Shown here in pieces: positions 6,322-64,000 of a stretch of 64,000 bases of DNA. The stretch's first letter is position 1. Each line of letters starts with the position of its first letter. The translations under genes were made by a program, and so were the position numbers. The notes beneath the pieces were generated by a model, which was not told where the DNA came from, did no database searches, and worked only from the letters and a program-made list of their open reading frames with translations. The DNA comes from Procambarus clarkii (taxonomy: Eukaryota; Arthropoda; Malacostraca; Decapoda; Cambaridae): the NCBI RefSeq assembly GCF_040958095.1, contig NC_091181.1, positions 26,490,349-26,554,348 on the forward strand. Reading direction: 5' to 3'.

Positions 6322-6345
6322 TTTTTGGCCGCTAGCGGCCAAAAA
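6322..6345. repeat. Perfect 24-bp palindrome at the left orientation switch
   Basis: The switch point is centred inside a GCTAGC core. Twelve bases ending TTGGCCGCT are followed directly by their reverse complement AGCGGCCAA, with T5 and A5 at the outer ends. A perfect loopless palindrome is expected where a monomer has been joined head-to-head at its own symmetry axis. Confidence 0.95.
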
Positions 6346-42224: not shown

Positions 42225-42368
42225 GAGCTTGTTCCCTGAATGGGTGCATTACATCCACCACTGTAGTGCCATCAACACATTGTACATATGCTTTACTGAA
42301 AGCACTGTACAATGCATGCCAGGCACTAAAGTTTTAGATGCATCCACCCATTCAGCAAACAAGCCCTG
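42225..42368. repeat. Imperfect inverted repeat of about 144 bp (unit A)
   Basis: Outer arms GAGCTTGTTCCCTGAATGGG and CCCATTCAGCAAACAAGCCC pair with a few mismatches. Pairing continues through CATCCACC/GGATG and TAGTGCC/GGCACTA, and inward to the exact pair CATTGTACA / TGTACAATG. It could fold into one long hairpin, as an old foldback transposon or MITE might. I saw no clear target duplication. Confidence 0.7.
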
Positions 42369-42646
42369 TGAGAATTAACAATGTAACCATTGTTAAGGGT
42401 CCCTAAACCTATGCAAATCTAGTCCATCTATTAGATGGGTAGTAGAGCAAAGCTCTGAAAAAGCCAAGCCAGGGAAATCTGCAGGACTGCCTGGTCCCCT
42501 TTTATGAAATGGGGTAGGATCAGTACAAACTGCATCATCCCCTGTGGGTTGTAACAGTAGGACATGGTTACACACCTATAAATGGACTATATAAGAGAAT
42601 TAAGATTAAGTCATTGATATAGCTAAAACATCAAATTCAAACTAAC

Positions 42647-43745: not shown

Positions 43746-44738
43746 CTTTATTAATTACAAAGCTATAGTCATTTCAAGTCAACATCCTATACAAATTTTA
43801 TTTTCCAACAACTTTAGTCATGAACATTTTTCTGGAACATTGCAAACAAACTTTAATTTAACAACCATGTATAACATTTGAATAAAAGCAATACAAAATT
43901 TATATATACAAATTATTATTCTTTTGCAACCACTGCTTACTACTAGGGGGACAAATTTATTCTGTTGAATTATGAACCAAGCTTTTTAGTCTGAAAATTC
44001 ATAATTAACCCAACTATACTACCAAGACAATGTGTTTTACTAAATTTAGTAATATTTTTACACTAGCAACTATACAAGGCCATATTCTCTCCAGTTATCA
44101 CCACACTTCTGCAGGTGTAAGGTTCTATCTCCCCCATCTGCAGCACTTATAACCACACTTGGTCTTTATTATAAATTTCTTTATGAACCTGATACAGTAC
44201 TGTTAATGGATTAAATGTTTTGTGGGAACAATTTAGCTACAGTTCTGCCAAAGGAATGTTTAACACACCATGCAAGCCAACTAATATTAAAGTTAGAAAT
44301 ATTTATTAAAAGCAGAAGTTTTTATCATATGGGATGTTATTTTAGAAGAATGGGTGGTGTGGTGGTTGTTATGGTTGAGTAACATGGTACAAGAGGGCAA
44401 GTAGTTGCTGAGCAAGTATGCCAATTTCAATTTCTAGCAAACTGGGAGATACAGCAGAAGTGCACACTTTCTGCATGAATTCTAATGGCAGTAAAGTTCC
44501 TACTAGAGAGTTACTGGCCACCATTCACTAATGACTAGGGGAAGTTAGCTCAGAGCATCTTTGATGTGCTTTGATGGCAACGAAAATGTTGCCCCCTTCA
44601 AACGTTAAGCTTGTCTACAGCATTTCGTTTTTAATTAACTATGTAAGGGGGAGATTCTGAATAGCAAGTGCCAATAGGCACTGCCACTGGCTTATGGCAA
44701 AAGATTCTGTAGCAATAGAACTATAAGCCACACTTTCT

Positions 44739-44788
44739 CCCCCCCCCCCTTCCTCCCAACTGTTCAGTGTCAAAAGGGAGGGGGGGTG
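44739..44788. repeat. C-run and G-run inverted pair (unit A)
   Basis: Eleven C residues, TTCCTCCC, a 20-base spacer, then GGGAGGGGGGG. The two runs can pair as a hairpin, and the C/G runs could adopt non-B structures. The C-run length differs between copies (A 11, B 10, C 10, and 9 in inverted copy D), which makes it a convenient copy marker and a likely sequencing or assembly trouble spot. Confidence 0.85.
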
Positions 44789-45049
44789 TCCATTTACTGT
44801 GCCACTTACATTTTAGTGTGGGCTTCATCCACTATTCTGATGTTAGCTGGAACATTTGTGCCAGCTGCTGGTTTGAAAGGGAGGCATACCATGTGCCAAT
44901 TCAGGAAGCTTTCCACGTTCCTCACTGCATGTCAGCTCAGGACCTCACTACCATGTTGAGAGGCAGTTGAAGACTAACCAATCAACATCCCAGGCTGGAG
45001 AGCAGTGCCAGCTCGGGGAGAATTTACCACCTGCAAAAAATTTAATACT

Positions 45050-45430
45050 CTTAACTATCTACACCATCTATCTCATCTTTACCTAGCCCCCAAACCTTAC
45101 ATTTGTCAGCATTAAACTGCATCTGGTAGTCTTAACCATTTCAAAACTATATAGGGCATCTATATTTCTTATTTGCCAATTCTGCAACTATTGCAGTCTA
45201 AACCATAATCTTGCGAATAACGGAGGTCCAAGGAGAGCTTTTAGGCACTACTTACAACACTTCTCCCAACTTAACCCCATTTATACCAATTTCCTTTGGT
45301 ATAGCCATGACCTAATCAACTTCAGTCAGCATTCCCAATGTTCCGAGCCCCTATCAATTTTGCGCCACTATCAAAATCTCTGCTGAAGTCAAGGTACACA
45401 AAATCACAAACCTTATCACCATTTCCTCAA
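45050..45430 (-). mobile_element. Decayed LINE reverse-transcriptase fragment (unit A)
   Basis: This is the reverse complement of the fragment described in unit D at 57,290-57,660. The motif A equivalent (VYLDFSRDFD) lies at about 45,370-45,399 and the FNADKCKV segment near 45,100-45,130. Reading frames are broken in several places, so it is a non-functional remnant of a CR1/L2-like LINE. Confidence 0.65.
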
Positions 45431-45640
45431 CTATGCAACCTAATCCATGAACATTTAGTAATAAAACTATGCGATTCATGTATCTAGTCATGTTTCTCAA
45501 AGAGAGTAGAGAAATGGCACTTGTAATGTTAGATTCTAGTAACTTTCCTCACAATAGACTAAGCTAATTGGTCACTAACTTAAGCGTTAAAGTTAATATA
45601 GCAAGTTTTAAAGGAAGTGTGTTAACTTTAACCCTTAAGC

Positions 45641-47205
45641 ATGATTTTTGGCTGCTAGCGGAGAAAATCGCGTGGTTTTTGGCAGGTAGCGGCGAAAATC
45701 GCGCTATTTTTGCCTGCCAGCTGCAAAAAAAAGCATAGTTTCTGGCCGCTAGCGGCGAAAATCGCACGATTTTTGGCCGGTAGCGGCGAAAATCGGCTAT
45801 ATTTGCCCGCCAGCTGCAAAAATCGCATAGTTTCTGGCCGCTAGCGGCGAAATTCCCACGATTTTTGGCCGCTAGCGGCGAAATTTGCACGATTTTTGGC
45901 CGCTAGCGGCGAAAATCGCGCTATTTTTGGCCGGTAGCGGCGAAAATCGCGATTTTTGCCCGCCAGCTGCGAAAATCGCATGGTTTTTGGCCGCTAGCGG
46001 CGAAAATCGCGCGGTTTTTGGCTGGTAGCGGCGAAATTCGCGCGTTTTTTGGCCGCCAGCTGCAAAAATCGTTTGGTTTCTGGCCGCTAGCGTCGAAAAT
46101 AGCGCGGTTTTCGGCCGTTAACGGCAAAAATCGCCCGATTTTTGGCCGCTAGCGGCGAAAATCGCACGGTTTTTGGCCGTTAGCGGCGAAAATCGCGCTA
46201 TTTTTGTCCGGTAGCGGCGAAAATCGGGCGGTTTTTGGCCGCCAGCTGCAAAAATCGCATGGTTTCTGGCCGCTAGCGTCGAAAATAGCACGGTTTTCGG
46301 CCGTTAACGGCAAAAATCGCCCGATTTTTGGCCGCTAGCTGCGAAAATCGCGCTATTTTTGTCCGGTAGCGGCGAAAATCGCACTATTTTTGCCCGCCAG
46401 TTGCAAAAATCGCATAGTTTCTGGCCGCTAGCGGCGAAAATCGCACGATTTTTGGCCGCTAGCGTCGAAAATCGCACGGTTTTTGGCCGCTAGTGGCGAA
46501 AATCGCGCTATTTTTGGCCGGTAGCGGCGAAAATCGCGATTTTTGGCCGCTAGCGGCGAAAATCGCATGGTTTTTGGCCGCTAGCGGCGAAAATCGCATG
46601 GTTTTTGGCCGCTAGCGGCGAAAATCGCGCAGTTTTTGGAAGGCAGCGGTGAATATCGCGATTTTTGCCCAACAGCTGCGAAAATCTCATGGTTTCTGGC
46701 CGCTAGCGGCGAAAATCGCACGATTTTTGGCCGCTAGCGGCAAAAATCGCACGGTTTTTGGCCGCTAGCGGCGAAAATCGCGCTATTTTTGGCCGGTAGC
46801 GCCGAAAATCGCGATTTTTGCCCGCCAGCTGCGAAAATCTCATGGTTTTTGGCCGCTAGCGGCGAAAATCGCGCGGTTTTTGGCCGGTATCTGCGAAAAT
46901 CGCGCTATTTTTGCCCGCCAGCTGCGAAAATCGCATGGTTTTTGGCCGCTAGCGGCGAAAATCGCGCGGTTTTTGGCCGGTAGCGGCGAATATCGCGATT
47001 TTTGCCCGCCAGCTGCGAAAATCGCATGGTTTTTGGCCGCTAGCTGCGAAAATCGCGCGGTTTTTGGCCGGTAGCGGCGAATATCGCGATTTTTGCCCGC
47101 CAGCTGCGAAAATCGCATGGTTTCTGGCCGCTAGCGGCGAAAATCGGACGATTTTTGGCCGCTAGCGGCGAAAATCGCACGGTTTTTGGCCGGTAGTGGC
47201 GAAAA
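45641..47205 (+). repeat. 31-bp satellite block between units A and B
   Basis: About 1.56 kb of satellite in the same orientation as the main array. Its first 140 bp start with divergent monomers (GGCTGCTAGCGGAG, GGCAGGTAGCGG, a CAGCTG monomer with AAAAAAAAGC), and these recur after unit B. From 45,781 it duplicates 40,706-42,130. Confidence 0.96.
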
Positions 47206-47299
47206 TCACCAATGCCTAATAATAAGCCCAAAAAATCCTAACAGCCAATCTTTTAACATTGGCTCAGCAAGGCCCATCCCTTCCTCTGATTTTAGTGCA

Positions 47300-47443
47300 G
47301 AGCTTGTTCCCTGAATGGGTGCATTACATCCACCACTGTAGTGCCATCAACACATTGTACATATGCTTTACTGAAAGCACTGTACAATGCATGCCAGGCA
47401 CTAAAGTTTTAGATGCATCCACCCATTCAGCAAACAAGCCCTG
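47300..47443. repeat. Imperfect inverted repeat of about 144 bp (unit B)
   Basis: Same structure as 42,225-42,368, displaced by 5,075 bp with no difference that I noticed. Confidence 0.7.
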
Positions 47444-47721
47444 TGAGAATTAACAATGTAACCATTGTTAAGGGTCCCTAAACCTATGCAAATCTAGTCC
47501 ATCTATTAGATGGGTAGTAGAGCAAAGCTCTGAAAAAGCCAAGCCAGGGAAATCTGCAGGACTGCCTGGTCCCCTTTTATGAAATGGGGTAGGATCAGTA
47601 CAAACTGCATCATCCCCTGTGGGTTGTAACAGTAGGACATGGTTACACACCTATAAATGGACTATATAAGAGAATTAAGATTAAGTCATTGATATAGCTA
47701 AAACATCAAATTCAAACTAAC

Positions 47722-48820
47722 CCACTTTTGTAGAGTTCCTTTTGCAGAGTAAAGGAGCCTCACTCCAAGCCAGTCCATGCATCATAATCACTTTCACCTG
47801 AAAAATATTAACAAATTAATTTCAGATTTAAAGCCAATCTTGCTTTACTTTTCAAATTAGCATTCAGTACTTTACAAATTCAGATGGAAAAAATTTATTT
47901 AAGGAATTTACCTTTCCTACATATTCTAGTAGCAGTAGTAAAGATCTAATTTAGCAATATAAATATATATGGCATCAATTTGCCAAGTTTCAATAAATGT
48001 CATTTGAGAAACTATCCACAACTGCACTTCAATGGCAATTTACATTTATCTTTAGCCAATGCTATATTGTTTAATTAAGTTATTACTATTTTTTTACTTT
48101 TATGCAAATCTATACAGATTAACCTTTACTACAACTCACCTGATTGTTTAAGCAATTAACTCTTCCAACTGACAGAGGGACTTTTGGACTTTCCAAACCA
48201 CATTCTGGAAAACTATATAAATTTAAAACCAAGCTAAAGTAAACATTGAATATTTTTTTTTTTTACTTTCAAGGGAAAAATACCATCACTTAGAACAAAA
48301 CTTTTCCTGCCATTAACTTTATTTGACTCATGATTACCCTTAACAGTGTTATACATTTATAGATTAAAGCTTATTTAACAAACATTTAATGTTAACTAAA
48401 CAAGATTTATATTTCATTAAATTTATTAATAAAACACCCTCAACTATGGTGTTTAAGATCTAATGCCCCACATTACAATTTTCACAATTTCAACATACCA
48501 TTCTATTCAATACATTCCTGAAAGGACTAAACTTGCAGATAAGGTACCCACTAGCTTAAGCCTAGACTTCCATACCCTAATATTTAATAGGTTTTTAGCA
48601 ATTAACTTCTACCCTCTAATTCCAATGTACACAACACTACTTACTGTAGATCTGCAAGTATTTTCTTGCAGCTCTTTGTTGCCAGGACCTTCCACAACCT
48701 GTCATGTGAACAGTAAATATTACTAAAAAGTTATTTTCATAGCGATGTTATTTTGTTCATACCTGTACCACCAGTTTAACAGTTGCCGTTTTAAATGGCA
48801 CACCAAGTATCTTGTCCCAT
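47722..48820 (-). pseudogene. Exon-like segments of an unidentified host gene (unit B)
   Basis: Same three AG/GT-flanked segments as in unit A, at 48,820-48,763, 48,204-48,140 and 47,797-47,722. They carry the same in-frame TAA in the middle segment and the same GTTAGT donor after the last one. The sharing agrees with B being a very recent copy of A, or the reverse. Confidence 0.38.
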
Positions 48821-50124
48821 CTTTATTAATTACAAAGCTATAGTCATTTCAAGTCAACATCCTATACAAATTTTATTTTCCAACAACTTTAGTCATGAAC
48901 ATTTTTCTGGAACATTGCAAACAAACTTTAATTTAACAACCATGTATAACATTTGAATAAAAGCAATACAAAATTTATATATACAAATTATTATTCTTTT
49001 GCAACCACTGCTTACTACTAGGGGGACAAATTTATTCTGTTGAATTATGAACCAAGCTTTTTAGTCTGAAAATTCATAATTAACCCAACTATACTACCAA
49101 GACAATGTGTTTTACTAAATTTAGTAATATTTTTACACTAGCAACTATACAAGGCCATATTCTCTCCAGTTATCACCACACTTCTGCAGGTGTAAGGTTC
49201 TATCTCCCCCATCTGCAGCACTTATAACCACACTTGGTCTTTATTATAAATTTCTTTATGAACCTGATACAGTACTGTTAATGGATTAAATGTTTTGTGG
49301 GAACAATTTAGCTACAGTTCTGCCAAAGGAATGTTTAACACACCATGCAAGCCAACTAATATTAAAGTTAGAAATATTTATTAAAAGCAGAAGTTTTTAT
49401 CATATGGGATGTTATTTTAGAAGAATGGGTGGTGTGGTGGTTGTTATGGTTGAGTAACATGGTACAAGAGGGCAAGTAGTTGCTGAGCAAGTATGCCAAT
49501 TTCAATTTCTAGCAAACTGGGAGATACAGCAGAAGTGCACACTTTCTGCATGAATTCTAATGGCAGTAAAGTTCCTACTAGAGAGTTACTGGCCACCATT
49601 CACTAATGACTAGGGGAAGTTAGCTCAGAGCATCTTTGATGTGCTTTGATGGCAACGAAAATGTTGCCCCCTTCAAACGTTAAGCTTGTCTACAGCATTT
49701 CGTTTTTAATTAACTATGTAAGGGGGAGATTCTGAATAGCAAGTGCCAATAGGCACTGCCACTGGCTTATGGCAAAAGATTCTGTAGCAATAGAACTATA
49801 AGCCACACTTTCTCCCCCCCCCCTTCCTCCCAACTGTTCAGTGTCAAAAGGGAGGGGGGGTGTCCATTTACTGTGCCACTTACATTTTAGTGTGGGCTTC
49901 ATCCACTATTCTGATGTTAGCTGGAACATTTGTGCCAGCTGCTGGTTTGAAAGGGAGGCATACCATGTGCCAATTCAGGAAGCTTTCCACGTTCCTCACT
50001 GCATGTCAGCTCAGGACCTCACTACCATGTTGAGAGGCAGTTGAAGACTAACCAATCAACATCCCAGGCTGGAGAGCAGTGCCAGCTCGGGGAGAATTTA
50101 CCACCTGCAAAAAATTTAATACTC

Positions 50125-50504
50125 TTAACTATCTACACCATCTATCTCATCTTTACCTAGCCCCCAAACCTTACATTTGTCAGCATTAAACTGCATCTGG
50201 TAGTCTTAACCATTTCAAAACTATATAGGGCATCTATATTTCTTATTTGCCAATTCTGCAACTATTGCAGTCTAAACCATAATCTTGCGAATAACGGAGG
50301 TCCAAGGAGAGCTTTTAGGCACTACTTACAACACTTCTCCCAACTTAACCCCATTTATACCAATTTCCTTTGGTATAGCCATGACCTAATCAACTTCAGT
50401 CAGCATTCCCAATGTTCCGAGCCCCTATCAATTTTGCGCCACTATCAAAATCTCTGCTGAAGTCAAGGTACACAAAATCACAAACCTTATCACCATTTCC
50501 TCAA
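50125..50504 (-). mobile_element. Decayed LINE reverse-transcriptase fragment (unit B)
   Basis: Copy of the unit A remnant with the same broken frames. The motif A equivalent is at about 50,444-50,473. Confidence 0.62.
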
Positions 50505-50714
50505 CTATGCAACCTAATCCATGAACATTTAGTAATAAAACTATGCGATTCATGTATCTAGTCATGTTTCTCAAAGAGAGTAGAGAAATGGCACTTGTAA
50601 TGTTAGATTCTAGTAACTTTCCTCACAATAGACTAAGCTAATTGGTCACTAACTTAAGCGTTAAAGTTAATATAGCAAGTTTTAAAGGAAGTGTGTTAAC
50701 TTTAACCCTTAAGC

Positions 50715-53629
50715 ATGATTTTTGGCTGCTAGCGGAGAAAATCGCGTGGTTTTTGGCAGGTAGCGGCGAAAATCGCGCTATTTTTGCCTGCCAGCTGCAA
50801 AAAAAAGCATAGTTTCTGGCCGCTAGCGGCGAAAATCGCACGATTTTTGGCCGCTAGCGGCGAAAATCGCACAGTTTTTGGCCGCTAGCGGCGAAAATCG
50901 CGCGGTTTTTGGCCGGTAGCGGCGAAAATCGCGCTATTTTCGCCCGCCAGCTGCAAAAATCGCATAGTTTCTGGCTGCTAGCAGCGAAAATCGCACGATT
51001 TTTGGCCGCTAGCGGTGAAATTCGCACGATTTTTGGCCGCTAACGGCAAAATTTGTAGGATTTTTGGCCGCTAGCGGCGAAAATCGCACGGTTTTTGGCC
51101 GCTAGCGGCGAAAATCGCGCTATTTTTGGCCGATAGCGGCGAAAATCGCGATTTTTGCCCGCCAGCTCCGAAAATCGCATGGTTTTTGGCCGGTAGCGGC
51201 GAAAATCACGCGGATTTTGGCCGGTAGCAGCGAAAATCGGTCGATTTTTGGCAGGTAGCGGCGAAATTCGCGCGGTTTTTGGCCGCCAGCTGCAAAAATA
51301 GCATGGTTTCTGGCCGCTAGCGTCGAAAATAGCGCGGTTGTCGGCCGTTAGCGGCAAAAATCGCCCGATTCTTGGCCGCTAGCGGCGAAAATCGCACGGT
51401 TTATGGCCGCTAGCGGCGAAAATCGCGCTATTTTTGGCCAGTACCGGCAAAAATCGCAATTTTTGCCCACCAGCTGCGAAAATCTCATGGTTTTTGGCCG
51501 CTTGCGGCGAAATTCGCGCTATTTTTGGCCGGTACCGGCGAAAATCGCGATTTTTGCCCTCCAGCTGCGAAAATCGCATGGTTTTTGGCCGCTAGCGGCA
51601 AAAATCGCGCGGTTTTTGGCCGGTAGCGCCGAAAATCGGTCGATTTTTGGCAGGTAGCGGCGAAATTCGCGCGGTTTTTGGCCGCTAGCGGCGAAAATAG
51701 AGCGGTTTACGGCCGTTAGCGGCAAAAATCGCCCGATTTTTGGCCGCTAGCGGCGAAAATCGCACGGTTTTTGGCCGCTAGCGGCGAAAATCGCGCTATT
51801 TTTGGCCAGTAGCGGCCAAAATCGCGATTTTTGCCCGCCAGCTGCGAAAATCGCATGGTTTTTGGCCGCTAGCGGCGAAAATCGCGCTATTTTTGCCCGC
51901 CAGCTGCAAAAATCGCATAGTATCTGGCCGCTAGCGGCGAAATTCCCACGATTTTTGGCCGCTAGCGGCGAAATTTGCACGATTTTTGGCCGCTAGCGGC
52001 GAAAATCGCGCTATTTTTAGCCGGTAGCGGCGAAAATCGCGATTTTTGCCCACCAGCTGCGAAAATCGCATGGTTTTTGGCCGCTAGCGGCGAAAATCGC
52101 GCGGTTTTTGGCCGGTAACGGTGAAAATCGGTCGATTTTTGGCAGGTAGCGGCGAAATTCGCGCGGTTTTTGGCCGCCAGCTGCAAAAATCGCATGGTTT
52201 CTGGACGCTAGCGTCGAAAATAGCGCGGTTTTCGGCCGTTAAGGGCAAAAATCGCCCGATTTTTGGCCGCTAGCGGCGAAAATCGCACGATTTTTGGCCG
52301 TTAGCGGCGAAAATCGCGCTATTTTTGTCCGGTAGCGGCGAAAATCGCGATTTTTGCCCACCAGCTGCGAAAATCGCATGGTTTTTGGCCGCTAGCGGCG
52401 AAAATCGCGTGGTTTTTGGCTGGTAGCGGCGAAATTCGCGCGTTTTTTGGCCGCCAGCTGCAAAAATCGCATGGTTTCTGGCCGCTAGCGTCGAAAATAG
52501 CGCGGTTTTCGGCCGTTAACGGCAAAAATCGCCCGATTTTTGGCCGCTAGCGGCGAAAATCGCACGGTTTTTGGCCGTTAGCGGCGAAAATCGCGCTATT
52601 TTTGTCCGGTAGCGGCGAAAATCGCGCTATTTTGCCCGCCAGCTTCAAAAATCGCATAGTTTCTGGCCGCTAGCGGCGAAAATCGCACGATTTTTGGCTG
52701 CTAGCGGCGAAAATCGCACGGTTTTTGGCCGCTAGCGGCGAAAATCGCGCTATTTTTGGCCGGTAGCGGCGAAAATCGCGATTTTTGCCTGCCAGCTGCA
52801 AAAATCTCATGGTTTTTGGCCGCTAGCGGCGAAAATCGCGCGGTTTTTGGCCAGTATCGGCGAAAATCGCGCTATTTTTGCCCGCCAGCTGCGAAAATCG
52901 CATGGTTTTTGGCCGCTAGCGGCGAAAATCGCGCGGTTTTTGGCCGGTAGCGGCGAATATCGCGATTTTTGCCCGCCAGTTGCGAAAATCGCATGGTTTT
53001 TGGCCGCTAGCGGCGAAAATCGCGCGGTTTTTGGCCGGCAGCGGCGAATATCGCGATTTTTGCCCGCCAGCTGCGAAAATCGCATGGTTTCTGGCCGCTA
53101 GCGGCGAAAATCGCGCGGTTTTTGGCCGATAGCGGCGAATATCGCGATTTTTGCCCGTCAGCTGCGAAAATCGCATGGTTTTTGGCCGCTAGCGGCGAAA
53201 ATCGCGCTATTTTTGGCTGGTAGCAGCGAAAATCGCGATTTTTGCCCGCCAGCTGCGAAAATCTCATGGTTTTTGGCCGCTAGCGGCGAAAATCGCGCGG
53301 TTTTTGGCCGGTATCGGCGAAAATCGCGCTATTTTTGCCCGCCAGCTGCGAAAATCGCATGGTTTTTGGCCGCTAGCGGCGAAAATCGCGCGGTTTTTGG
53401 CCGATAGCGGCGAATATCGCGATTTTTGCCCGTCAGCTGCGAAAATCGCATGGTTTTTGGCCGCTAGCTGCGAAAATCGCGCGGTTTTTGGCCGGTAGCG
53501 GCGAATATCGCGATTTTTGCCCGCCAGCTGCGAAAATCGCATGGTTTCTGGCCGCTAGCGGCGAAAATCGGACGATTTTTGGCCTCTAGCGGCGAAAATC
53601 GCACGGTTTTTGGCCGGTAGTGGCGAAAA
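50715..53629 (+). repeat. 31-bp satellite block between units B and C
   Basis: About 2.9 kb of satellite in the main orientation. It starts with the same divergent monomers as 45,641 and then passes into a series with several private changes (for example GGCCAGTACCGGC, GGCCGCTTGCGGCG, GTTATCTGG-like variants). It ends in a 91-bp trimer repeat next to unit C. Confidence 0.96.
52840..53560 (+). repeat. 91-bp trimeric higher-order repeat
   Basis: The monomer order GGTAGC core, CAGCTG core, GCTAGC core repeats with a period of 91 bp (31+29+31). It includes a diagnostic GGCGAATATCGCGATTTTTG linker. Several consecutive trimers can be followed here (for example 52,916 and 53,007). The same trimer order appears less regularly throughout the array, so this stretch shows the higher-order unit most cleanly. 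Confidence 0.85.
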
Positions 53630-53723
53630 TCACCAGTGCCTAATAATAAGCCCAAAAAATCCTAACAGCCAATCTTTTAACATTGGCTCAGCAAGGCCCA
53701 TCCCTTCCTCTGATTTTAGTGCA

Positions 53724-53867
53724 GAGCTTGTTCCCTGAATGGGTGCATTACATCCACCACTGTAGTGCCATCAACACATTGTACATATGCTTTACTGAAA
53801 GCACTGTACAATGCATGCCAGGCACTAAAGTTTTAGATGCATCCACCCATTCAGCAAACAAGCCCTG
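53724..53867. repeat. Imperfect inverted repeat of about 144 bp (unit C)
   Basis: Same arms and the same inner CATTGTACA / TGTACAATG pair as in unit A. Confidence 0.7.
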
Positions 53868-54145
53868 TGAGAATTAACAATGTAACCATTGTTAAGGGTC
53901 CCTAAACCTATGCAAATCTAGTCCATCTATTAGATGGGTAGTAGAGCAAAGCTCTGAAAAAGCCAAGCCAGGGAAATCTGCAGGACTGCCTGGTCTCCTT
54001 TTATGAAATGGGGTAGGATCAGTACAAACTGCATCATCCCCTGTGGGTTGTAACAGTAGGACATGGTTACACACCTATAAATGGACTAGATAAGAGAATT
54101 AAGATTAAGTCATTGATATAGCTAAAACATCAAATTCAAACTCAC

Positions 54146-55243
54146 CCACTTTTGTAGAGTTCCTTTTGCAGAGTAAAGGAGCCTCACTCCAAGCCAGTCC
54201 ATGCATCATAATCACTTTCACCTGAAAAATATTAAAAAATTAATTTCAGATTTAAAGCCAATCTTGCTTTACTTTTCAAATTAGCATTCAGTACTTTACA
54301 AATTCAGATGGAAAAAATTTATTTAAGGAATTTACCTTTCCTACATATTCTAGTAGCAGTAGTAAAGATCTAATTTAGCAATATAAATATATATGGCATA
54401 AATTTGCCAAGTTTCAATAAATGTCATTTGAGAAACTATCCACAACTGCACTTCAATGGCAATTTACATTTATCTTTAGCCAATGCTATATTGTTTAATT
54501 AAGTTATTACTATTTTTTTACTTTTATGCAAATCTATTCAGATTAACCTTTACTACAACTCACCTGATTGTTTAAGCAATTAACTCTTCCAACTGACAGA
54601 GGGACTTTTGGACTTTCCAAACCACATTCTGGAAAACTATATAAATTTAAAACCAAGCTAAAGTAAACATTTAATATTTTTTTTTTTACTTTCAAGGGAA
54701 AAATACCATCACTTAGAACAAAACTTTTCCTGCCATTAACTTTATTTGACTCATGATTACCCTTAACAGTGTTATACATTTATAGATTAAAGCTTATTTA
54801 ACAAACATTTAATGTTAACTAAACAAGATTTATATTTCATTAAATTTATTAATAAAACACCCTCAACTATGCTGTTTAAGATCTAATGCCCCACATTACA
54901 ATTTTCACAATTTCAACATACCATTCTATTCAATACATTCCTGAAAGGACTAAACTTGCAGATATGGTACCCACTAGCCTAAGCCTAGACTTCCATACCC
55001 TAATATTTAATAGGTTTTTAGCAATTAACTTCTACCCTCTAATTCCAATGTACACAACACTACTTACTGTAGATCTGCAAGTATTTTCCTCAAGCTCTTT
55101 GTTGCCAGGACCTTCCACAACCTGTCATGTGAACAGTAAATATTACTAAAAAGTTATTTTCATAGCGATGTTATTTTGTTCATACCTGTACCACCAGTTT
55201 AACAGTTGCCGTTTTAAATGGCACACCAAGTATCTTGTCCCAT
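54146..55243 (-). pseudogene. Exon-like segments of an unidentified host gene (unit C)
   Basis: Segments lie at 55,243-55,186, 54,628-54,564 and 54,221-54,146 on the minus strand. The middle segment has the same TAA and 2-bp shortening as A and B, but the donor after the last segment is GTGAGT as in D. C is thus intermediate between D and A/B. Confidence 0.4.
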
Positions 55244-56529
55244 CTTTATTAATTACAAAGCTATAGTCATTTCAAGTCAACATCCTATACAAATTTTATT
55301 TTCCAACAACTTTAGTCATGAACATTTTTCTGGAACATTGCAAACAAACTTTAATTTAACAACCATGTATAACATTTGAATAAAAGCAATACAAAATTTA
55401 TATATACAAATTATTATTCTTTTGCAACCACTGCTTACTACTAGGGGGACAAATTTATTCTGTTGAATTATGTACCAAGCTTTTTAGTCTGAAAATTCAT
55501 AATTAACCCAACTATACTACCAAGACAATGTGTTTTACTAAATTTAGTAATATTTTTACACTAGCAACTATACAAGGCCATATTCTCTCCAGTTATCACC
55601 ACACTTCTGCAGGTGTAAGGTTCTATCTCCCCCATCTGCAGCACTTATGACCACACTTGGTCTTTATTATAAATTTCTTTATGAACCTGATACAGTACTG
55701 TTAATGGATTAAATGTTTTGTGGGAACAATTTAGCTACAGTTCTGCCAAAGGAATGTTTAACACACCATGCAAGCCAACTAATATTAAAGTTAGAAATAT
55801 TTATTAAAAGCAGAAGTTTTTATCATATGGGATGTTATTTTAGAAGAATGGGTGGTGTGGTGGTTGTTATGGTTGAGTAACATGGTACAAGAGGGCAAGT
55901 AGTTGCTGAGCAAGTATGCCAATTTCAATTTCTAGCAAACTGGGAGATACAGCAGAAGTGCACACTTTCTGCATGAATTCTAATGGCAGTAAAGTTCCTA
56001 CTAGAGAGTTACTGGCCACCATTCACTAATGACTAGGGGAAGTTAGCTCAGAGCATCTTTGATGTGCTTTGATGGCAACGAAAATGTTGCCCCCTTCAAA
56101 CGTTAAGCTTGTCTACAGCATTTCGTTTTTAATTAACTATGTAAGGGGGAGATTCTGAATAGCAAGTGCCAATAGGCACTGCCACTGGCTTATGGCAAAA
56201 GATTCTGTAGCAATAGAACTATAAGCCACACTTTCTCCCCCCCCCCTTCCTCCCAACTGTTCAGTGTCAAAAGGGAGGGGGGGTGTCCATTTACTGTACC
56301 ACTTACATTTTAGTGTGGGCTTCATCCACTATTCTGATGTTAGCTGGAACATTTGTGCCAGCTGCTGGTTTGAAAGGGAGGCATACCATGTGCCAATTCA
56401 GGAAGCTTTCCACGTTCCTCACTGCATGTCAGCTCAGGACCTCACTACCATGTTGAGAGGCAGTTGAAGACTAACCAATCAACATCCCAGGCTGGAGAGC
56501 AGTGCCAGCTCGGGGAGAATTTACCACCT

Positions 56530-56920
56530 GCAAAAAATTTAATACTCTTAACTATCTACACCATCTATCTCATCTTTACCTAGCCCCCAAACCTTACATT
56601 TGTCAGCATTAAACTGCATCTGGTAGTCTTAACCATTTCAAAACTATATAGGGCATCTGTATTTCTTATTTGCCAATTCTGCAACTATTGCAGTCTAAAC
56701 CATAATCTTGCGAATAACGGAGGTCCAAGGAGAGCTTTTAGGCACTACTTACAACACTTCTCCCAACTTAACCCCATTTATACCAATTTCCTTTGGTATA
56801 GCCAAGACCTAATCAACTTCAGTCAGCATTCCCAATGTTCCGAGCCCCTATCAATTTTGCGCCACTATCAAAATCTCTGCTGAAGTCAAGGTACACAAAA
56901 TCACAAACCTTATCACCATT
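56530..56920 (-). mobile_element. Decayed LINE reverse-transcriptase fragment (unit C)
   Basis: Same remnant as in units A and B. The motif A equivalent is at about 56,868-56,897. Frames are broken. Confidence 0.62.
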
Positions 56921-57093
56921 TCCTCAACTATGCAACCTAATCCATGAACATTTAGTAATAAAACTATGTGATTCATGTATCTAGTCATGTTTCTCAAAAA
57001 GAGTAGAGAAATGGCACTTGTAATGTTAGATTCTAGTAACTTTCCTCACAATAGACTAAGCTAATTGGTCACTAACTTAAGCGTTAAAGTTAA

Positions 57094-57118
57094 TATAGCA
57101 AGTTTTAAAGGAAGTGTG
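57094..57118. repeat. 25-base loop at the centre of the giant palindrome
   Basis: The arms flanking this loop are TTAAAGTTAA (left) and TTAACTTTAA (right), followed outward by CTTAAG on both sides and then by about 2 kb of inverted repeat. In units A and B the same small hairpin (CTTAAG…loop…CTTAAG) is present, but satellite begins exactly after the right CTTAAG. The hairpin may have seeded fold-back synthesis. Confidence 0.9.
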
Positions 57119-57289
57119 TTAACTTTAACCCTTAAGTTAGTGACCAATTAGCTTAGTCTATTGTGAGGAAAGTTACTAGAATCTAACATTACAAGTGCCA
57201 TTTCTCTACTCTTGTTGAGAAACATGACTAGATACATGAATCGCATAGTTTTATTACTAAATGTTCATGGATTAGGTTGCATAGTTGAG

Positions 57290-57660
57290 GAAATGGTGAT
57301 AAGGTTTGTGATTTTGTGTACCTTGACTTCAGCAGAGATTTTGATAGTGGCGCAAAATTGATAGGGGCTCGGAACATTGGGAATGCTGACTGAAGTTGAT
57401 TAGGTCATGGCTATACCAAAGGAAATTTGTATAAATGGGGTTAAGTTGGGAGAAGTGTTGTAAGTAGTGCCTAAAAGCTCTCCTTGGACCTCCGTTATTC
57501 GCAAGATTATGGTTTAGACTGCAATAGTTGCAGAATTGGCAAATAAGAAATATAGATGCCCTATATAGTTTTGAAATGGTTAAGACTACCAGATGCAGTT
57601 TAATGCTGACAAATGTAAGGTTTGGGGGCTAGGTAAAGATGAGATAGATGGTGTAGATAG
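57290..57660 (+). mobile_element. Decayed LINE reverse-transcriptase fragment (unit D)
   Basis: Three reverse-transcriptase landmarks of CR1/L2-type LINEs appear in order in drifting frames. VYLDFSRDFD at 57,316-57,345 resembles motif A (YLDFSKAFD). LLGPPLF near 57,470-57,500 resembles motif B (VPQGSVLGPLLF). QMQFNADKCKVWGLGKD at 57,590-57,640 resembles the conserved region after the catalytic YADD box. Motif C itself is not recognisable, and stops and frameshifts are numerous. The AT-rich unit therefore includes an old dispersed repeat. Confidence 0.68.
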
Positions 57661-57927
57661 TTAAGAGTATTAAATGTTTTGCAGGTGGTAAATTCTCCCC
57701 GAGCTGGCACTGCTCTCCAGCCTGGGATGTTGATTGGTTAGTCTTCAACTGCCTCCCAACATGGTAGTGAGGTCCTGAGCTGACATGCAGTGAGGAACGT
57801 GGAAAGCTTCCTGAATTGGCACATGGTATGCCTCCCTTTCAAACCAGCAGCTGGCACAAATGTTCCAGCTAACATCAGAATAGTGGATGAAGCCCACACT
57901 AAAATGTAAGTGGTACAGTAAATGGAC

Positions 57928-57974
57928 ACCCCCCCTCCCTTTTGACACTGAACAGTTGGGAGGAAGGGGGGGGG
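57928..57974. repeat. C-run and G-run inverted pair (unit D)
   Basis: Inverted version of the tract in unit A, with a G-run of nine here. Same possible hairpin. Confidence 0.8.
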
Positions 57975-58133
57975 TGGAGAAAGTGTGGCTTATAGTTCTT
58001 AGGGTAATCATGAGTCAAAGTTAATGGCAGGAAAAGTTTTGTTTTAAGTGATGGTATTTTTCCCCTGAAAGTAAAAAAAAATATTCAATGTTTACTTGTT
58101 AATGCTTGGTATTAAATTTATATAGTTGTCCAG

Positions 58134-58614
58134 AATGTGGTTTGGAAAGTCCAGAAGTCCCTCTGTCAGTTGGAAGAGTTAATTGCTCAAACAGAATCAG
58201 GTGAGTTGTAGTAAAGGTTAATCTGAATAGATTTGCATAAAAGTAAAAAAATAGTAATAACTTAATTAAATATAGCATTGGCTAAAGATAAATGTAAATT
58301 GCCATTGAAGTGCAGTTGTGGATAGTTTCTCAAATGACATTTACTGAAACCTGGCAAATTGATGCCATATATATTTATATTGCTAAATTAATCTTTACTA
58401 CTGCTACTAGAATATGTAGGAAAGGTAAATTCCTTAAAGAAATTTTTTCCATCTGAATTTGTAAAGTACTGAATGCTAATTTGAAAAGTAAAGCAAGATT
58501 GGCTTTAAATCTGAAATTAATTTGTTAATATTTTTCAGGTGAAAGTGATTATGATGCATGGACTGGCTTGGAGTGAGGCTCCTTTACTCTGCAAAAGGAA
58601 CTCTACAAAAGTGG
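58134..58614 (+). pseudogene. Exon-like segments of an unidentified host gene (unit D)
   Basis: Segment 1 (58,134-58,200) follows TTGTCCAG, precedes GTGAGT, and reads NVVWKVQKSLCQLEEL plus seven more residues without a stop. Segment 2 (58,539-58,614) follows TTTTTCAG, precedes GTGAGT, and continues in the same phase as ESDYDAWTGLE to a TGA at 58,574-58,576. Unlike A-C, segment 1 is open here. Segment 0 is absent because it lies in the 1.45 kb missing from D. The peptide is charged and probably helical; I cannot name it. It could be the C-terminal end of a real gene, a pseudogene fragment, or chance. Confidence 0.42.
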
Positions 58615-58892
58615 GTGAGTTTGAATTTGATGTTTTAGCTATATCAATGACCTAATCTTAATTCTCTTATCTAGTCCATTTATGGGTGTGTAACCATGTC
58701 CTACTGTTACAACCCACAGGGGATGATGCAGTTTGTACTGATCCTACCCCATTTCATAAAAGGGGACCAGGCAGTCCTGCAGATTTCCCTGGCTTGGCTT
58801 TTTCAGAGCTTTGCTCTACTACCCATCTAATAGATGGACTAGATTTGCATAGGTTTAGGGACCCTTAACAATGGTTACATTGTTAATTCTCA

Positions 58893-59037
58893 CAGGGCTT
58901 GTTTGCTGAATGGGTGGATGCATCTAAAACTTTAGTGCCTGGCATGCATTGTACAGTGCTTTCAGTAACACATATGTACAATGTGTTGATGGCACTAAAG
59001 TGGTGGATGTAATGCACCCATTCAGGGAACAAGCTTT
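58893..59037. repeat. Imperfect inverted repeat of about 145 bp (unit D)
   Basis: The same foldback structure as in A-C, read from the other strand, with GAATGGGTG / CACCCATTC arms and the CATTGTACA / TGTACAATG inner pair. D adds ACACA around the loop and other small changes. Confidence 0.7.
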
Positions 59038-59072
59038 GCACTAAAATCAGAGGAAGGGATAGGCCTTGCTGA

Positions 59073-59092
59073 GCCAATCTTAAAAGATTGGC
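59073..59092. repeat. Short palindrome near the end of unit D
   Basis: GCCAATCTT and AAGATTGGC face each other with two bases between them. In A-C the second arm is altered (AACATTGGC), so D seems to keep the older form. Confidence 0.8.
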
Positions 59093-59131
59093 TGTTAGGA
59101 TTTTTTGGGCTTATTATTAGGCATTGGTGAT

Positions 59132-59869
59132 AATAAAAGTAGTGTCCCTGTTTAATGTTTATTTTTCTTTTACAGGTGATTGTCTCTGGAGTTGTCTTGG
59201 CCTTTTGGATCTTCTGTTCATCTAGGAGCATCTGTCCCACAACCTGAAACAGTAATAAATATTAGATGTATTATAAATACTATATGTAAAACTTATTAAA
59301 TAAAACAATTTTAATGAAACTACTTTATATACCTTATCCTGAAATTATGCTGGAAATTATTGTTTACTACTATTGATGCAATGTTTAAACATCTGAATTT
59401 TTTTTACTTTGAAAATAAATACTTGGTAAAATTTACACCTATTTGTAACTTGTTACATAGGTGCATGCAAAATGCATTGAAAAGATGTAAAAGTGGACTA
59501 CCTATTCAATTTACATAAACTAACAAATATTGCAAATTAGTCTGAAATATTAAAGTGGAAGAAACTTTAGTCAATATTTTAGTTTTCATATTTGAAAGTA
59601 AATTTAAAGCTATGCAACACCTAAGCTTTGTACAAATTATGATTAAATTAACTAAAGATCATTGTTAAATTTACAAAACATTAGAAAAGTGACAATGAAG
59701 CATCTATACAACATGGTTTTCACAAAGTCTTTGGTAACCTAAATTTAATCAAAGCTCTTAAATGATTTGTCTGCCAAACTTGAGATATTCTGAAATATTT
59801 TACCTAGATTAAAACCATCATTGTTTGAAAGGGCAAAACAGATTACTGTCAATTAGTTTGACCTAACAT
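59132..59869. other. AT-rich non-satellite DNA next to unit D
   Basis: No gene is supported. One exon-like trace lies on the + strand: CTTTTACAG ends at 59,175, and the next 72 nt (59,176-59,247) read a hydrophobic peptide (VIVSGVVLAFWIFCSS…) to a TGA, with AATAAA at 59,254-59,259. It could be a terminal exon with a poly(A) signal. Its phase does not follow from the segments in unit D, so I leave it unassigned. The rest is low-complexity A/T-rich sequence. Confidence 0.5.
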
Positions 59870-60350
59870 CTGCAAGGTCCTGAAGGAATGGAATTTTTTT
59901 TGTAAAACTTTGTTTGCTAAAAACAAACCCTGCCTAATGAACCTGCTCATTTTTTTTAGAAATGGTAATTGCAACATTACCAAAGGCCATTGTTTTAATA
60001 GCCAAAGTACCAAATGAAAGACCAAGAAGCAACAAACGGGTACATGGTAGAAAGGACAAAAGAATGGTTACGAGGACCCTTTCATTTGTTAAAGAAATGA
60101 CTGAGGAAAAATGCTGTCATACCACAAGGGGTCTTAACCCTTGTCATATACATCACTGACATTAATCTAAATATTACCAACCACAAAAATTGCTGATAAC
60201 ATGTTATAAAGAATATAATATTGAGGCCTTAATGCAGATCTCTAACTCTACAAATAGTAACAAGACTGGCAATTTCTTAATATAAAACAGAAAAAAAATC
60301 CAAGACCTTGCACGTGAGCCAGAACAATCCATATCACAACTACCACATTA
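59870..60350 (+). mobile_element. Strongly decayed CR1/L2-like LINE fragment
   Basis: Landmarks of a LINE reverse transcriptase occur in the right order on the + strand. KPCLMNLL near 59,925 resembles the SCLTNLLEF region. KVPNERP at 60,004-60,024 resembles the end of motif A (KVPHERLL). VIPQGVLTLVIYITDI at 60,116-60,166 is motif B (GVPQGSVLGPLLFIIYINDI). IADN at 60,189-60,200 stands where the FADD catalytic box should be, with the second Asp changed. QDWQFLNIK at 60,261-60,287 matches the WQMLFNIDKCK region. Several stops and shifts make it non-functional. A younger LINE has inserted just past its recognisable end. Confidence 0.72.
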
Positions 60351-60356
60351 AAATGA

Positions 60357-60369
60357 AACAACAATGAAG
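60357..60369 (+). repeat. Target site duplication, left copy
   Basis: AACAACAATGAAG, identical to 61,926-61,938. The 13-bp length is typical for LINE insertion by target-primed reverse transcription. Confidence 0.88.
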
Positions 60370-61925
60370 GTAATTACCAAAAGAAGGCACCAAACCGGGA
60401 AGGCCATGTAGCACCATCAAAGTGCGAAATAATCAGAGGGCGCTAAATATCACCAAGAATGCCAATACGAGAACAAAAACGCATAAGGCGAACGATATCA
60501 AAAGTATCCGATTCACCTAGAATTCTATCGAGGCACAAGTAACTGCGAGGGACGGTCGGAAAGCAAGACACACGCTCGTCCTGGAAGTCAGGACATTCAA
60601 CATGGATATGCACAACTGTAAGAGGGACAACGCAATTCGGACAATAAGGAGCAGGCCGGCGCTCCATTAAGTGACCGTGGGTTAAGCGGGTATGACCAAC
60701 CCACAGCCGTGCCAAAGCAGTGTCCCACCGCCGGTTACGGTGGTAGGAGGAAGGCCACGGGGATACACTAAGTTTGAGAGTACGCAGCTTGTTACCAACC
60801 ACAGAGGGCCAACGGGGAAGAATGAATAACAGGATAAAAGTCGGAATAAGGAATACCTTTACGGGAGATGGGACAAGAACGGATAGCTTCCTTAGCGGCA
60901 GCATCCGCACGCTCATTGAAACACCAATATGGCTGGGAACCCAGCAAAACTCTACTGATTTAAATTTACTAGAAATAAGAAACAGCCAATGTTGAATCTC
61001 AATGACCACCGGATGGACAGGATTAAAGGACCCTAGAGCCATGAGGGCACTACGAGAATCAACCACAACCACAAAGGAGGAATGAGAATGAGAAAGCAAG
61101 AGACGAAGAGCATAAAGTTCTGCCGTAAAGACGCTAGCCTCCGAAGGGAGGCGACACATGTAAGTACGGTCAGGAAAAACAACAGAGTAGCCCACACCAT
61201 CCGCAGACTTAGACCCATCAGGGAAGATGGAAATAGAGTGGGAGTGCGAAGAAAAGTGCTCAAGGAAGAGGCTTTTCAGAATTGTAGGAGGGGTAAAGGC
61301 TTTAGTAATACAAGTCAAGGACGTAGAAAACTTGGGAAGGGGGACTCTCCACGGAGGTAATGAAGGAACAATACGAGGAGAAACATTAGAAATATGAACA
61401 GAAAGAGAATCCTGTAAGCGAGATAACTGGACAGAAAGTGGGAGACAATGAAGAGGAACAGGAATCACAGGAGGAGGAGAAGTCAATGCACGACAGAGGC
61501 GAGAGGAAGGATGTTGGAAGGACCGCGCAAGATAGCGAAGACAGTAGCGATCACGGCAGTCCTGAAGAGAGAGAAAGCCAGTGTCAACATACAAACTAAG
61601 GGCGGGAGTCGAACGAAAGCCACCAGAGCCGAGACGCAACCCAGTATGGTGCAAAGCATCAAGATGGCGAAGAGTAGAAGGAGAAGCAGAAGAGTATGCA
61701 GGGCAACCATAATTGAGTGTAGACAGGACGAAAGAGGAGTGCAAATAGAGGAGCGTGCGCCTATCCGCTCCCCAAGATGTATGGGACAAAACCTTAAGGA
61801 GGTTAAGGGCCTTAGAGCATTCAACTCGGAGGCAAGAGATATGGGCTGACCAAGACAAACGAGTGTCAAAGACTAACCCCAAAAGCGTCGTGGAATCCCT
61901 GTACACAATGAGATGACCATAAAGC
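60370..61925 (-). mobile_element. 5'-truncated RNase H-bearing LINE (Jockey/I group)
   Basis: The element is 1,556 bp, flanked by 13-bp direct repeats, and read on the minus strand. It keeps only the 3' part of the second open frame (end of the reverse transcriptase, RNase H, C-terminal zinc-knuckle) and a 3' UTR of about 70 bp (60,370-60,442) containing CCTTCCCGGTTTGGTGCC. There is no poly(A) tail; the 3' end is GGTAATTACC. Loss of the 5' end with intact target duplications is the usual outcome of incomplete reverse transcription, so this copy was probably dead on arrival. It sits in or beside the decayed LINE at 59.87-60.35 kb, so it is the younger of the two. Confidence 0.9.
60443..61925 (-). 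pseudogene. LINE ORF2 C-terminal part: RT thumb, RNase H, zinc-knuckle
   Basis: The open frame runs about 494 codons to a stop at the 60,443 end and has no ATG start, because the element is 5'-truncated. Numbering from the TTG at 61,933, residues 19-130 match the end of a Jockey-type reverse transcriptase (LGLVFDTRLSWSAHI, VLSHTSWGADRRTLL, LNYGCPAY). Residues 236-345 are the RNase H domain: D239 in FPDGSK, E272 in TAELYAL, D292 in VDSRSAL, then WVPSHIGV. The fourth acidic site, NERADAAAK, is readable only in another frame: a shift near 60,918 and a compensating one near 60,820 put about 100 nt out of frame. A CPNC…HIHVEC knuckle lies at residues 431-447. RNase H is therefore non-functional in this copy. 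Confidence 0.88.
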
Positions 61926-61938
61926 AACAACAATGAAG
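61926..61938 (+). repeat. Target site duplication, right copy
   Basis: AACAACAATGAAG, identical to 60,357-60,369; it marks the truncated 5' end of the LINE. Confidence 0.88.
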
Positions 61939-62399
61939 TAAAGGTCCTTTCAGTAAGAATCTATCATTCACTGAAAGTTGCTGCAGTTAAAAATAAAAGA
62001 AAATACAAATCCCTAGAAATAAACAAGCAACCTTTTTGACTAAGGAAAAGAAGGTAGTTATTCTACTGTATAAATCTAAGTATTCACTTAGATAACTGTA
62101 TCCAAGCATAGAGGTCCCCCCCCCCTTCACTTTCAGAAAAACATCTACTTTCGAAAAAGTTTAACATTGGCCAACAAAAATGATTCCAGAACTAAATTGC
62201 CTAATACCAGGAACAACTGAGAGCCATGACAAACACTGCAACCCTCTCCTACCCCCAAGTCTTATGCTATTTATGATCCAAGGTAATTTGAGATACTATA
62301 CTGTACTTCCTACAGACGAGTCTAGTGAGAGGGTGATCTCCTGGCGATTAAATTGAAGCACGATACAGGTGTCAACGAACATCAGTCAGCCCACTTGTC
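61939..62399. other. AT-rich intergenic DNA
   Basis: No gene, RNA or ordered repeat recognised. It contains a C-run (62,117-62,125). It could hold the continuation of the decayed LINE interrupted at 60,357, but I could not align it by eye. Confidence 0.6.
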
Positions 62400-62477
62400 A
62401 GCACAGTGGATAACTAATGACATCATAATCTGCAGTGTTGTATGCCTCCCTGAGGCCATTTAAATCAATAAAACACA
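62400..62477 (-). mobile_element. Possible reverse-transcriptase motif A scrap
   Basis: The minus strand reads LCFIDLNGLREAYNTADYDV in one open stretch. It resembles motif A of some LINE reverse transcriptases (FIDLxKAFDTVDHDIL) with a few extra residues in the middle. No other ordered motif was found nearby, and its position relative to the fragment at 62.8 kb is in the wrong order for one element. Weak call. Confidence 0.3.
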
Positions 62478-62729
62478 GGGTTGTGGCAATGTTTACAGCA
62501 TAAGGCAAGGTATTGAGGAATCCTGGAATGCCATGTAATGTGTAGTCCTTGAATGTGCTTTAGGCAACCAAATTGAATAACAACATTTCTGGTGTTCGGC
62601 TATATAATCCGAGTTTCTCACTCGGTATAATGTTTTAAACCTAAATAGGAATTCACTTTAAAGATCAATTTATTTGGAAAGTGCTAACCAGATTCCAAAT
62701 TACTGAGCTCTGAAAGTACTACAAGGCAA

Positions 62730-62870
62730 GTTTAACCGAATGAGTGTTTGCCTATCCATACCCCCATGAGGTATGTGACAACACTGAATAAAGAAAGGGT
62801 CTTTGAGCATTCACCGTGCAGGTATTTGACATGACCAATATAGCCAAGTGTTAAAGATCATTCTAAGCAG
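62730..62870 (-). mobile_element. Old fragment of the same Jockey-like LINE family
   Basis: The minus strand contains VLSHTSWG (62,761-62,784) preceded in another frame by GECSKTL. In the LINE at 60.4-61.9 kb the corresponding stretch is VECSKALNLLKVLSHTSWG. Nucleotide similarity continues to about 62,855 (GAGCATTC…GTGTTAAAG versus GAGCATTC…GTGTCAAAG). Stops and shifts follow. This is an older, more diverged insertion of the same family. Confidence 0.65.
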
Positions 62871-62879
62871 TTCTGCACA

Positions 62880-64000
62880 ATCCATATACTATCAATTAAT
62901 ATAATTGTACAATGGTGCTTGGTGGATGATATTTCCTATTAAAACTCATTGGACAACTGTTTGTATTAGACATTTTAAACCTACAAATGGTAGCCCTAGA
63001 TATCGCACTACAGTATTAATTACAAGATGAACAATGTAAAATCAATACCACAACAGCAAAGGATGACGGCTGTTCAACAACCGACAAACACACAGGTCTA
63101 ACACCAGCCATCCCGAGAGAGGACGTCCCAAGCATGTACACCCCACAACTTTACATCACCTTTGCTACCTCACGCGAGCCCGCAACAGCATGAGGATGCC
63201 ATACTCCCAAACCAACTCCATGCACTTTGAGGCTTTAACAACTCAACATTTAAAAGGTTGATTTAAAAAATCAAACACCTGAATTTTTGCCTAATTAAAT
63301 TTACTAGGGAAATGCACACCAAGCCATGAAACTTACAATGAAGATGAACAAACTACATACAACTGTCACCAAACTTCCACATACCACCCCCCTCTCACTC
63401 CTGCCCTCCCTCCTTAGGTGCTCTGATTGGCTGAGCACCTGAGCCACCACCACTCATCTCTTGTTGTGAGAGCCTAAAGCATGTTTAGTTGCACTTTAAA
63501 AGTTCCCGAGTGTACTCGCCTAATTGTGAGTACCGCCTGCCCGGTTCACCATTTTGTTTTTCAATCTACCTCAATTTACCCCTTTACAGTCAAATATTAT
63601 GCAAAATTCTGTTTAAGACTTGTCCCTTCTTAACTTAAATAACTGCTTTGGCCATCTGCAATCTTTCTAGGTGGGTAAAAATGACTCTTGAGGCCAGAAA
63701 GGACTTATCAGACGGCGATTATAACAATACGGTACACACACAAAATCACAACCTGATATACACCAAGCAGAAAATCCACTGGAGCTGTGAGGCGACGTAA
63801 ACCCTTGCCCAAGGCACTGGCAGCTGCATACTCTACCACAGTATATTACTGACTGTAAAAGTCTTACAACCGGATTTCCCCATAAATCACAGCAAGTTTT
63901 GAGGCCCCTCCTTGAGTCAACGTCTTACGTAAGACCTACAAGCACTCAGGTGAAGGCTGAAGCAGTTCAACACCATACGCCCCAACTTCAAATACACAGT
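62880..64000. other. Non-coding AT-rich DNA with a few GC-richer islands
   Basis: No gene supported. Around 63,060-63,200 the minus strand has a less A/T-rich stretch with a 32-codon frame (MAGVRPVCLSVVEQPSSFAV…), too short and isolated to call. Near 63,505-63,535 the string GTGTACTCGCCTAATTGTG resembles, from memory, a dispersed decapod repeat beginning GTGTACTCACCTAATTGTG. The right end is cut by the window. Confidence 0.5.
63416..63440. repeat. 8-bp inverted repeat enclosing an ATTGG (CCAAT) motif
   Basis: AGGTGCTC and GAGCACCT flank TGATTGGCT. ATTGG is the reverse of a CCAAT box, but no TATA box, start site or downstream gene is evident. It may be part of a dispersed repeat rather than a promoter. 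Confidence 0.55.

Follow-up and report, generated by a model that had tools for sequence, protein, structure and literature searches.

A 64,000-nt stretch of the genome of the crayfish Procambarus clarkii (64 kb of contig C32 in a 4.03-Gb assembly, free of N; hereafter the window) contains a long palindrome beside an array of a 31-bp satellite. The palindrome consists of an arm termed C and an inverted arm termed D on either side of a 25-base loop, and two related units, termed A and B, are located further left within the satellite. All four are fragments of a dispersed repeat that measures at least about 18 kb. We propose, with a probability of roughly 0.8, that the palindrome is the fossil of a fold-back inverted duplication, a reading that is drawn from sequence comparison. 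Specifically, the inverted duplication was probably made by fold-back synthesis at a broken end, with a 3-bp TAA microhomology. As a fossil of a known type of DNA repair error, the locus is unusually easy to read. Hundreds of unrearranged copies supply the 'before' sequence base by base, and the turn, the microhomology, the joint with the satellite, a break near the tip and the order of the steps can all be read.

The palindrome is real. An earlier note on this DNA had described C and D as pairing over about 2 kb around positions 57,094-57,118. The pairing and the 25-base loop hold, but the arms proved to be unequal, with lengths of 3.47 kb for C and 2.01 kb for D. The inner arms (56,227-57,093 and 57,119-57,985) are 867 nt long, 99% complementary and 25 nt apart, and outer blocks of D (58,017-58,084, 58,104-58,193, 58,195-58,270, 58,269-58,390 and 58,391-59,131) pair with parts of 53,629-54,743. 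Within 53,630-59,131 the longest exact inverted repeat is 218 nt, compared with a maximum of 20 nt in 20 base shuffles, and the apex folds with a z score of -17.8 relative to shuffles. Arm D lacks about 1.45 kb that is present in C (54,764-56,214). Because the resulting junction (about 57,999-58,001) occurs only once in the genome, this deletion is private to D, and its use as a mark of descent from another copy was rejected. Outside the deletion gap, the alignment of C with D shows 37 differences in 1,998 bases (1.85%), a count that omits the unrelated flanks (71 differences with the flanks included).

In a genome search with the apex, 40 of 438 candidates were scored, and 20 of the listed places were fetched for comparison (loci given L numbers below). 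Among the 40 scored candidates, dispersed apex matches have 95-99% identity and are spread over many contigs. With up to 3 mismatches allowed, the unrearranged site has 254 occurrences in the genome and none in a reversed control; the inversion junction is found three times, corresponding to A, B and C, and is likewise absent from the control. All 20 fetched loci read GTTAA followed by CTCAAACTTTTCC and have no inverted stem, and past the right end of the unit all 20 continue as GTTAA followed by CTCAAACTTTTCCTTTAAAACTTGCTATATTAGG (one base off in L018, L020 and L027). Relative to this unrearranged sequence, C ends at GTTAA and D's side is 25 bases longer (29 in unrearranged copies). The turn therefore has a single-copy spacer of 25 bases, on D's side only, and a short inverted microhomology, the 3-bp TAA. 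A match of at least 3 bp has a chance probability of about 0.06 at the regional base composition, a value that refers to the turn. That joint, at the other end of C, also has a 3-bp match, ATC, and occurs three times genome-wide, only in A, B and C.

These comparisons run counter to a second statement of the earlier note, that the palindrome was seeded by a pre-existing small hairpin. The hairpin is absent from 20 of 20 fetched dispersed copies, the unrearranged copy L014 folds like its shuffles (z -0.13), and the junction is confined to this locus. In A and B, the fold of the whole 131-base stretch is hardly better than that of shuffles (z -0.87). The copies indicate that the hairpin is the inversion junction itself, a scar and not a seed. 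All that pre-existed at the turn is the 3-bp inverted pair TAA/TTA.

The relationship of the arms was examined in an alignment of 17 of the 20 fetched loci; L024, L025 and L027, in which the unit is split or incomplete, were omitted, and left-end columns were skipped in the divergence, shared-state and tree analyses. The tree places A, B, C and D in one clade with support of 99/98 (98/97 for the inner part). C and D have four states in common that are absent from the dispersed rows, while 169 of the 170 other pairs have two or fewer. The remaining pair, the recently separated L016 and L017, shares six. Furthermore, two words carrying derived states occur four times each genome-wide, only in A, B, C and D. 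The clade and the unique words argue that the inverted arms come from the same locus, as in the fold-back class, and indicate that C and D are sisters derived from one repeat copy.

Original and copy can be told apart by their flanks. In all 18 fetched loci that retain a left end (L024 and L027, 2 of the 20, have none to show), the left flank of the dispersed unit is the sequence found to the right of D, small differences aside. Because D continues into the repeat, and C ends in satellite at a private joint, the flanks identify D as the original and C as the inverted copy.

Units A and B are the later products of this locus. They are identical to each other (0 differences in 3,562 aligned bases), and A differs from C at 21 of 3,531 aligned bases. 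Both carry the inversion junction and the first 43 bases of D's side, comprising the 25-base loop and an 18-base stem in D's version. Specifically, 45,579-45,639 in A, 50,653-50,713 in B and 57,076-57,136 in C/D are 61 identical bases, after which A and B pass directly into satellite (CATGATTTTTGG). The earlier note had reported that the unit stops at the right CTTAAG where satellite begins, and had interpreted this end as that of a palindrome which broke within its stem and became joined to satellite; both points are borne out. The joint, CTTAAG followed by CATGATTTTTGG, occurs twice genome-wide, and A and B are exactly alike across it over at least 180 bases. The length of the 18-nt inner stem described in the note is fixed only by the stop in A and B, since C/D pairing runs further, and the shared bases indicate that the 18-base 'small hairpin' is the remnant of the palindrome at the A/B cut. 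Because A and B combine the D-type right stem with C-type derived states and, in the tree, split off from C once C and D had separated, they are younger than the palindrome. A stretch of 1,491 bases that runs from satellite into the unit (45,770-47,260) is identical to 40,695-42,185 and is thus common to A and B, and the satellite to the left of A and C is alike over about 450 bases with 7 mismatches and divergent beyond. The shared stretches fit a tandem duplication of satellite, arm C and tip, with a spacing of 6,423, followed by a duplication of A, with a spacing of about 5,075.

The junction sequences, the single origin of the arms, the roles of original and copy and the order of events, each read from the sequence as described, suggest the following course. 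A copy of the dispersed repeat in minus orientation would have lain at the edge of the 31-bp satellite array. A break or stalled fork inside the repeat would have exposed a 3' end reading ...TATATTA, which could have folded back onto a TAA located 25-29 bases from it in the same strand and served as the primer for copying about 3.5 kb of its own arm, producing arm C. The copying strand would then have left the arm at ATC and either continued in satellite or been joined to it. Mutations would have accumulated in both arms, with the loss of about 1.45 kb from D. Subsequently, a tandem duplication of satellite, arm C and tip, with its right breakpoint 18 bases past the loop, would have produced the A/B type of unit, and a recent duplication of A would have given B. 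We infer both fold-back priming as the physical mechanism and tip breakage as the cause of the A/B duplication.

Several observations weigh against this scheme. A 3-bp match is little, and a template switch at a replication fork, including one resembling origin-dependent inverted-repeat amplification (ODIRA), leaves the same scar. A search for the part of the repeat beyond the break, covering the window with 10 kb to its left and 30 kb to its right, gave only short or weak matches, of which the longest had 280 bases at 81% and the closest had 128 bases at 97%. With the outer part of the arms alone, clade support falls to 80/75, and three of the four states common to C and D lie in the inner part, the other being in the outer arm at column 533. 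The raw C-D divergence of 1.85% is no lower than the 1.71% between C and L015, its nearest dispersed copy, so the sister relationship rests on the shared derived states and the tree. Among other explanations, a template switch during replication, either ODIRA-like or by a fork switching between strands, in place of the folding back of an end, is a serious though rather unlikely one. The part of PMC10766186 consulted describes template switches that use very short interrupted inverted repeats and also give palindromic junctions. However, its ODIRA repeats are 5-6 bp long and 40-80 bp apart, versus 3 bp and 25-29 nt here, and an ODIRA inverted triplication needs two inverted junctions, whereas only one turn is found in 40,000-64,000 (a secondary loss could account for this).

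It is improbable, in our judgment, that two independent copies of the repeat came to lie head to head by insertion or rearrangement and were later homogenised by gene conversion. The abundance of the repeat (254 sites) and a C-D divergence like that to the nearest dispersed copy would permit such an origin, and the inner arms are closer than the outer ones (10 of 880 versus 27 of 1,118 differences; Fisher p 0.04). Yet the inner part is also less divergent when compared with dispersed copies, and we make no claim of gene conversion between the arms. Furthermore, two independent cuts would have to fall within about 25 bases of each other, and the derived words found nowhere else, the derived state at column 533 of the outer arm and the 99/98 clade all speak for one copy. 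A fold-back chimeric read or an assembly misjoin can yield short-loop palindromes of this shape, but would leave identical arms and a single flank sequence. The divergence of C and D, the deletion in D, their unlike flanks, the absence of N and the presence of the same junction inside A and B with satellite on both sides make such an artefact very unlikely. A seed hairpin at the end of the unit has the least to commend it and is scarcely credible. Units A and B do have a small hairpin without a long second arm, but they are younger than the C-D split, the fetched copies lack the hairpin, and D continues into the original repeat and so cannot be a copy of C.

The fold-back inverted duplication favored here resembles known systems in several respects. 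In human germline cases, the sections of Hermetz et al. (2014; PMC3907307) used here report 13 sequenced junctions with a spacer and 2-8 bp of inverted microhomology. As at this locus, a neighbouring segment is inverted around a single-copy spacer and the far end lies in other sequence, which is a telomere or another chromosome in the human cases and satellite here. Unlike those large chromosome-end events, the crayfish rearrangement spans a few kilobases, with a 25-nt spacer and old, diverged arms. At yeast breaks, according to part of PMC11724301, fold-back with a 41-nt loop occurs, and Mre11 processes loops only up to about 8 nt. The short yeast inversions have in common with the present case a small loop, priming by microhomology and the joining of the other end. 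Their copied segments, however, are mostly under 14 bp and reach about 150 bp, versus about 3.5 kb here, and the priming match is an imperfect 10 bp versus 3 bp. A third parallel is with palindromic AT-rich repeats (PATRRs) and other fragile palindromes, for which portions of a review (PMC7999016) describe palindrome-induced breaks that are joined to other sequence; the outcome seen at the crayfish locus is a local tandem duplication, in place of a recurrent translocation.

The inner arms, about 0.87 kb at 99% around a 25-base loop, were retained over the time in which the complete arms diverged by 1.85%. The arms are old. Under an assumed neutral rate of a few changes per billion sites per year, their age would be some millions of years. 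Breaks in PATRRs cluster near the centre. The right breakpoint of A and B is located 30 bases from the centre in an arm of about 2 kb, a proximity expected by chance in about 1.5% of cases but chosen for calculation post hoc. With that reservation it fits a role of the palindrome as a germline fragile site, whose tip was cut at most about 30 bases from the centre and whose repair into satellite started the compound tandem repeat. We put this forward very tentatively, as a doubtful possibility. If it is true, a higher-order satellite unit made of satellite, arm and tip had its origin in an error of the fold-back type. A palindrome of this kind can supply a satellite array with new compound units. 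In the cited portions of the literature, fold-back palindromes come from yeast assays, tumours and patients.

Table 1. Features of the window (positions in window numbering; TRF, Tandem Repeats Finder).
Feature	Positions	Strand	Basis or remark
31-bp satellite array left of A, running leftward beyond the window	1-42,129		TRF, 31-bp period, 1,370 copies; TRF span 1-42,132
Unit A: repeat arm, inversion junction, loop, first 18 right-stem bases, then satellite	42,130-45,639	+	
Satellite spacer 1 (A to B)	45,640-47,204		TRF; TRF span 45,645-47,207
Unit B, recent tandem copy of A, period about 5,075	47,205-50,713	+	
Satellite spacer 2 (B to C)	50,714-53,628		TRF; TRF span 50,719-53,631
Arm C (inverted copy, from flank comparison)	53,629-57,093	+	Left end joins satellite, ATC common to both
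TAA microhomology, 3 bp, common to both sides of the turn	57,091-57,093		Versus unrearranged sequence, 20 dispersed loci
Loop, 25 bases, D's side extending past the end of arm C	57,094-57,118		29 bases in unrearranged copies
Arm D with internal deletion of about 1.45 kb relative to C	57,119-59,131	-	Inverted-repeat and alignment comparison
Right stem, at whose end (57,136) A and B break off; that end is 30 bases from the palindrome centre	57,119-57,136	-	
Dispersed repeat continuing beyond arm D	59,132-64,000	-	D indicated as original copy

The size of the dispersed repeat follows from its reach on both sides of the break. At this locus the repeat can be matched with C62 from the apex as far as about 72,387 (window numbering), and the family runs about 2.9 kb past the break point in L011, L012, L016, L022 and L028, which together give the minimum of about 18 kb. 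Beyond D, the repeat is colinear with L016 and L017 to position 64,000 at 97.3%, and most other fetched loci are colinear over shorter stretches, some of them gapped. A transposon end with a built-in hairpin was considered and rejected: in the five loci just named the family extends about 2.9 kb beyond this point, and the hairpin is missing from 20 of 20 fetched loci. Helitrons are an example of transposons whose ends have a terminal hairpin. The repeat is a mosaic in which one frame (L029, 1,274-1,879) matches RNase H (Pfam, E 1.1e-5) and another weakly resembles a CENP-B-type DNA-binding domain (CENP-B_N, E 0.0016, below the Pfam cut-off). The 504-aa frame at 60,443-61,957 has no Pfam match at E 0.001; of the five other frames compared with Pfam, two had matches at E 0.1 or better and three had none. 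Rfam gives 0 matches at gathering score over 42,000-64,000.

The minus-strand stretch at 60,443-61,957 and L029:1,274-2,448 are related retrotransposon-like fragments of the repeat that are about 77% alike. L029 has a direct repeat (4,670-6,935; about 1.6 kb) in which the same transposase-like frame is present twice, and the scanned copy is the one with the weak CENP-B_N match. At 53,722-53,872, and likewise in A, B and D, an imperfect hairpin of about 140 bases is present (RNA fold -64.4 kcal/mol, z -7.85). Its internal inverted repeat is found in 19 of the 20 fetched loci. Candidate identities for the hairpin are a small hairpin transposon and a structured RNA.

The satellite monomer contains a perfect 12-base palindrome, GCCGCTAGCGGC, which occurs 484 times in the array at 1-42,129. 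In one rotation, the self-complementarity of the satellite is 20 of 31, not above the shuffled maximum of 24. The 31-base monomer word is found 55,289 times genome-wide (at most 2 mismatches) in both orientations, the first listed places being on contigs C1-C6. A literature search for crayfish 31 bp satellite DNA found none, and in the available part of a decapod repeat paper (PMC10454600) the strings '31 bp' and 'palindrom' are absent. Left of the window (L032), the sequence is mostly satellite of the same 31-bp type, interrupted by a retrotransposon-like insertion (L032:192-1,806). The apex part of the dispersed repeat is distantly related to this insertion, at about 66% for most loci, and the turn of the palindrome therefore seems to lie within a fragment of an old retrotransposon.

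Other members of the repeat family have rearrangements of their own. In L027, a 2-kb piece (1-2,092) is opposite in orientation to the apex part (5,457-6,609) several kilobases away, and is another inverted rearrangement in the family, of a different kind. Many fetched copies lack different parts of the middle stretch at about 43,250-44,720 (unit A numbering), as D does, and this stretch seems prone to deletion. Finally, L016 and L017, located about 1.4 Mb apart on C48, are recent duplicates with 0.64% divergence in the outer part and 0.11% in the inner part, and have a large internal deletion in common.

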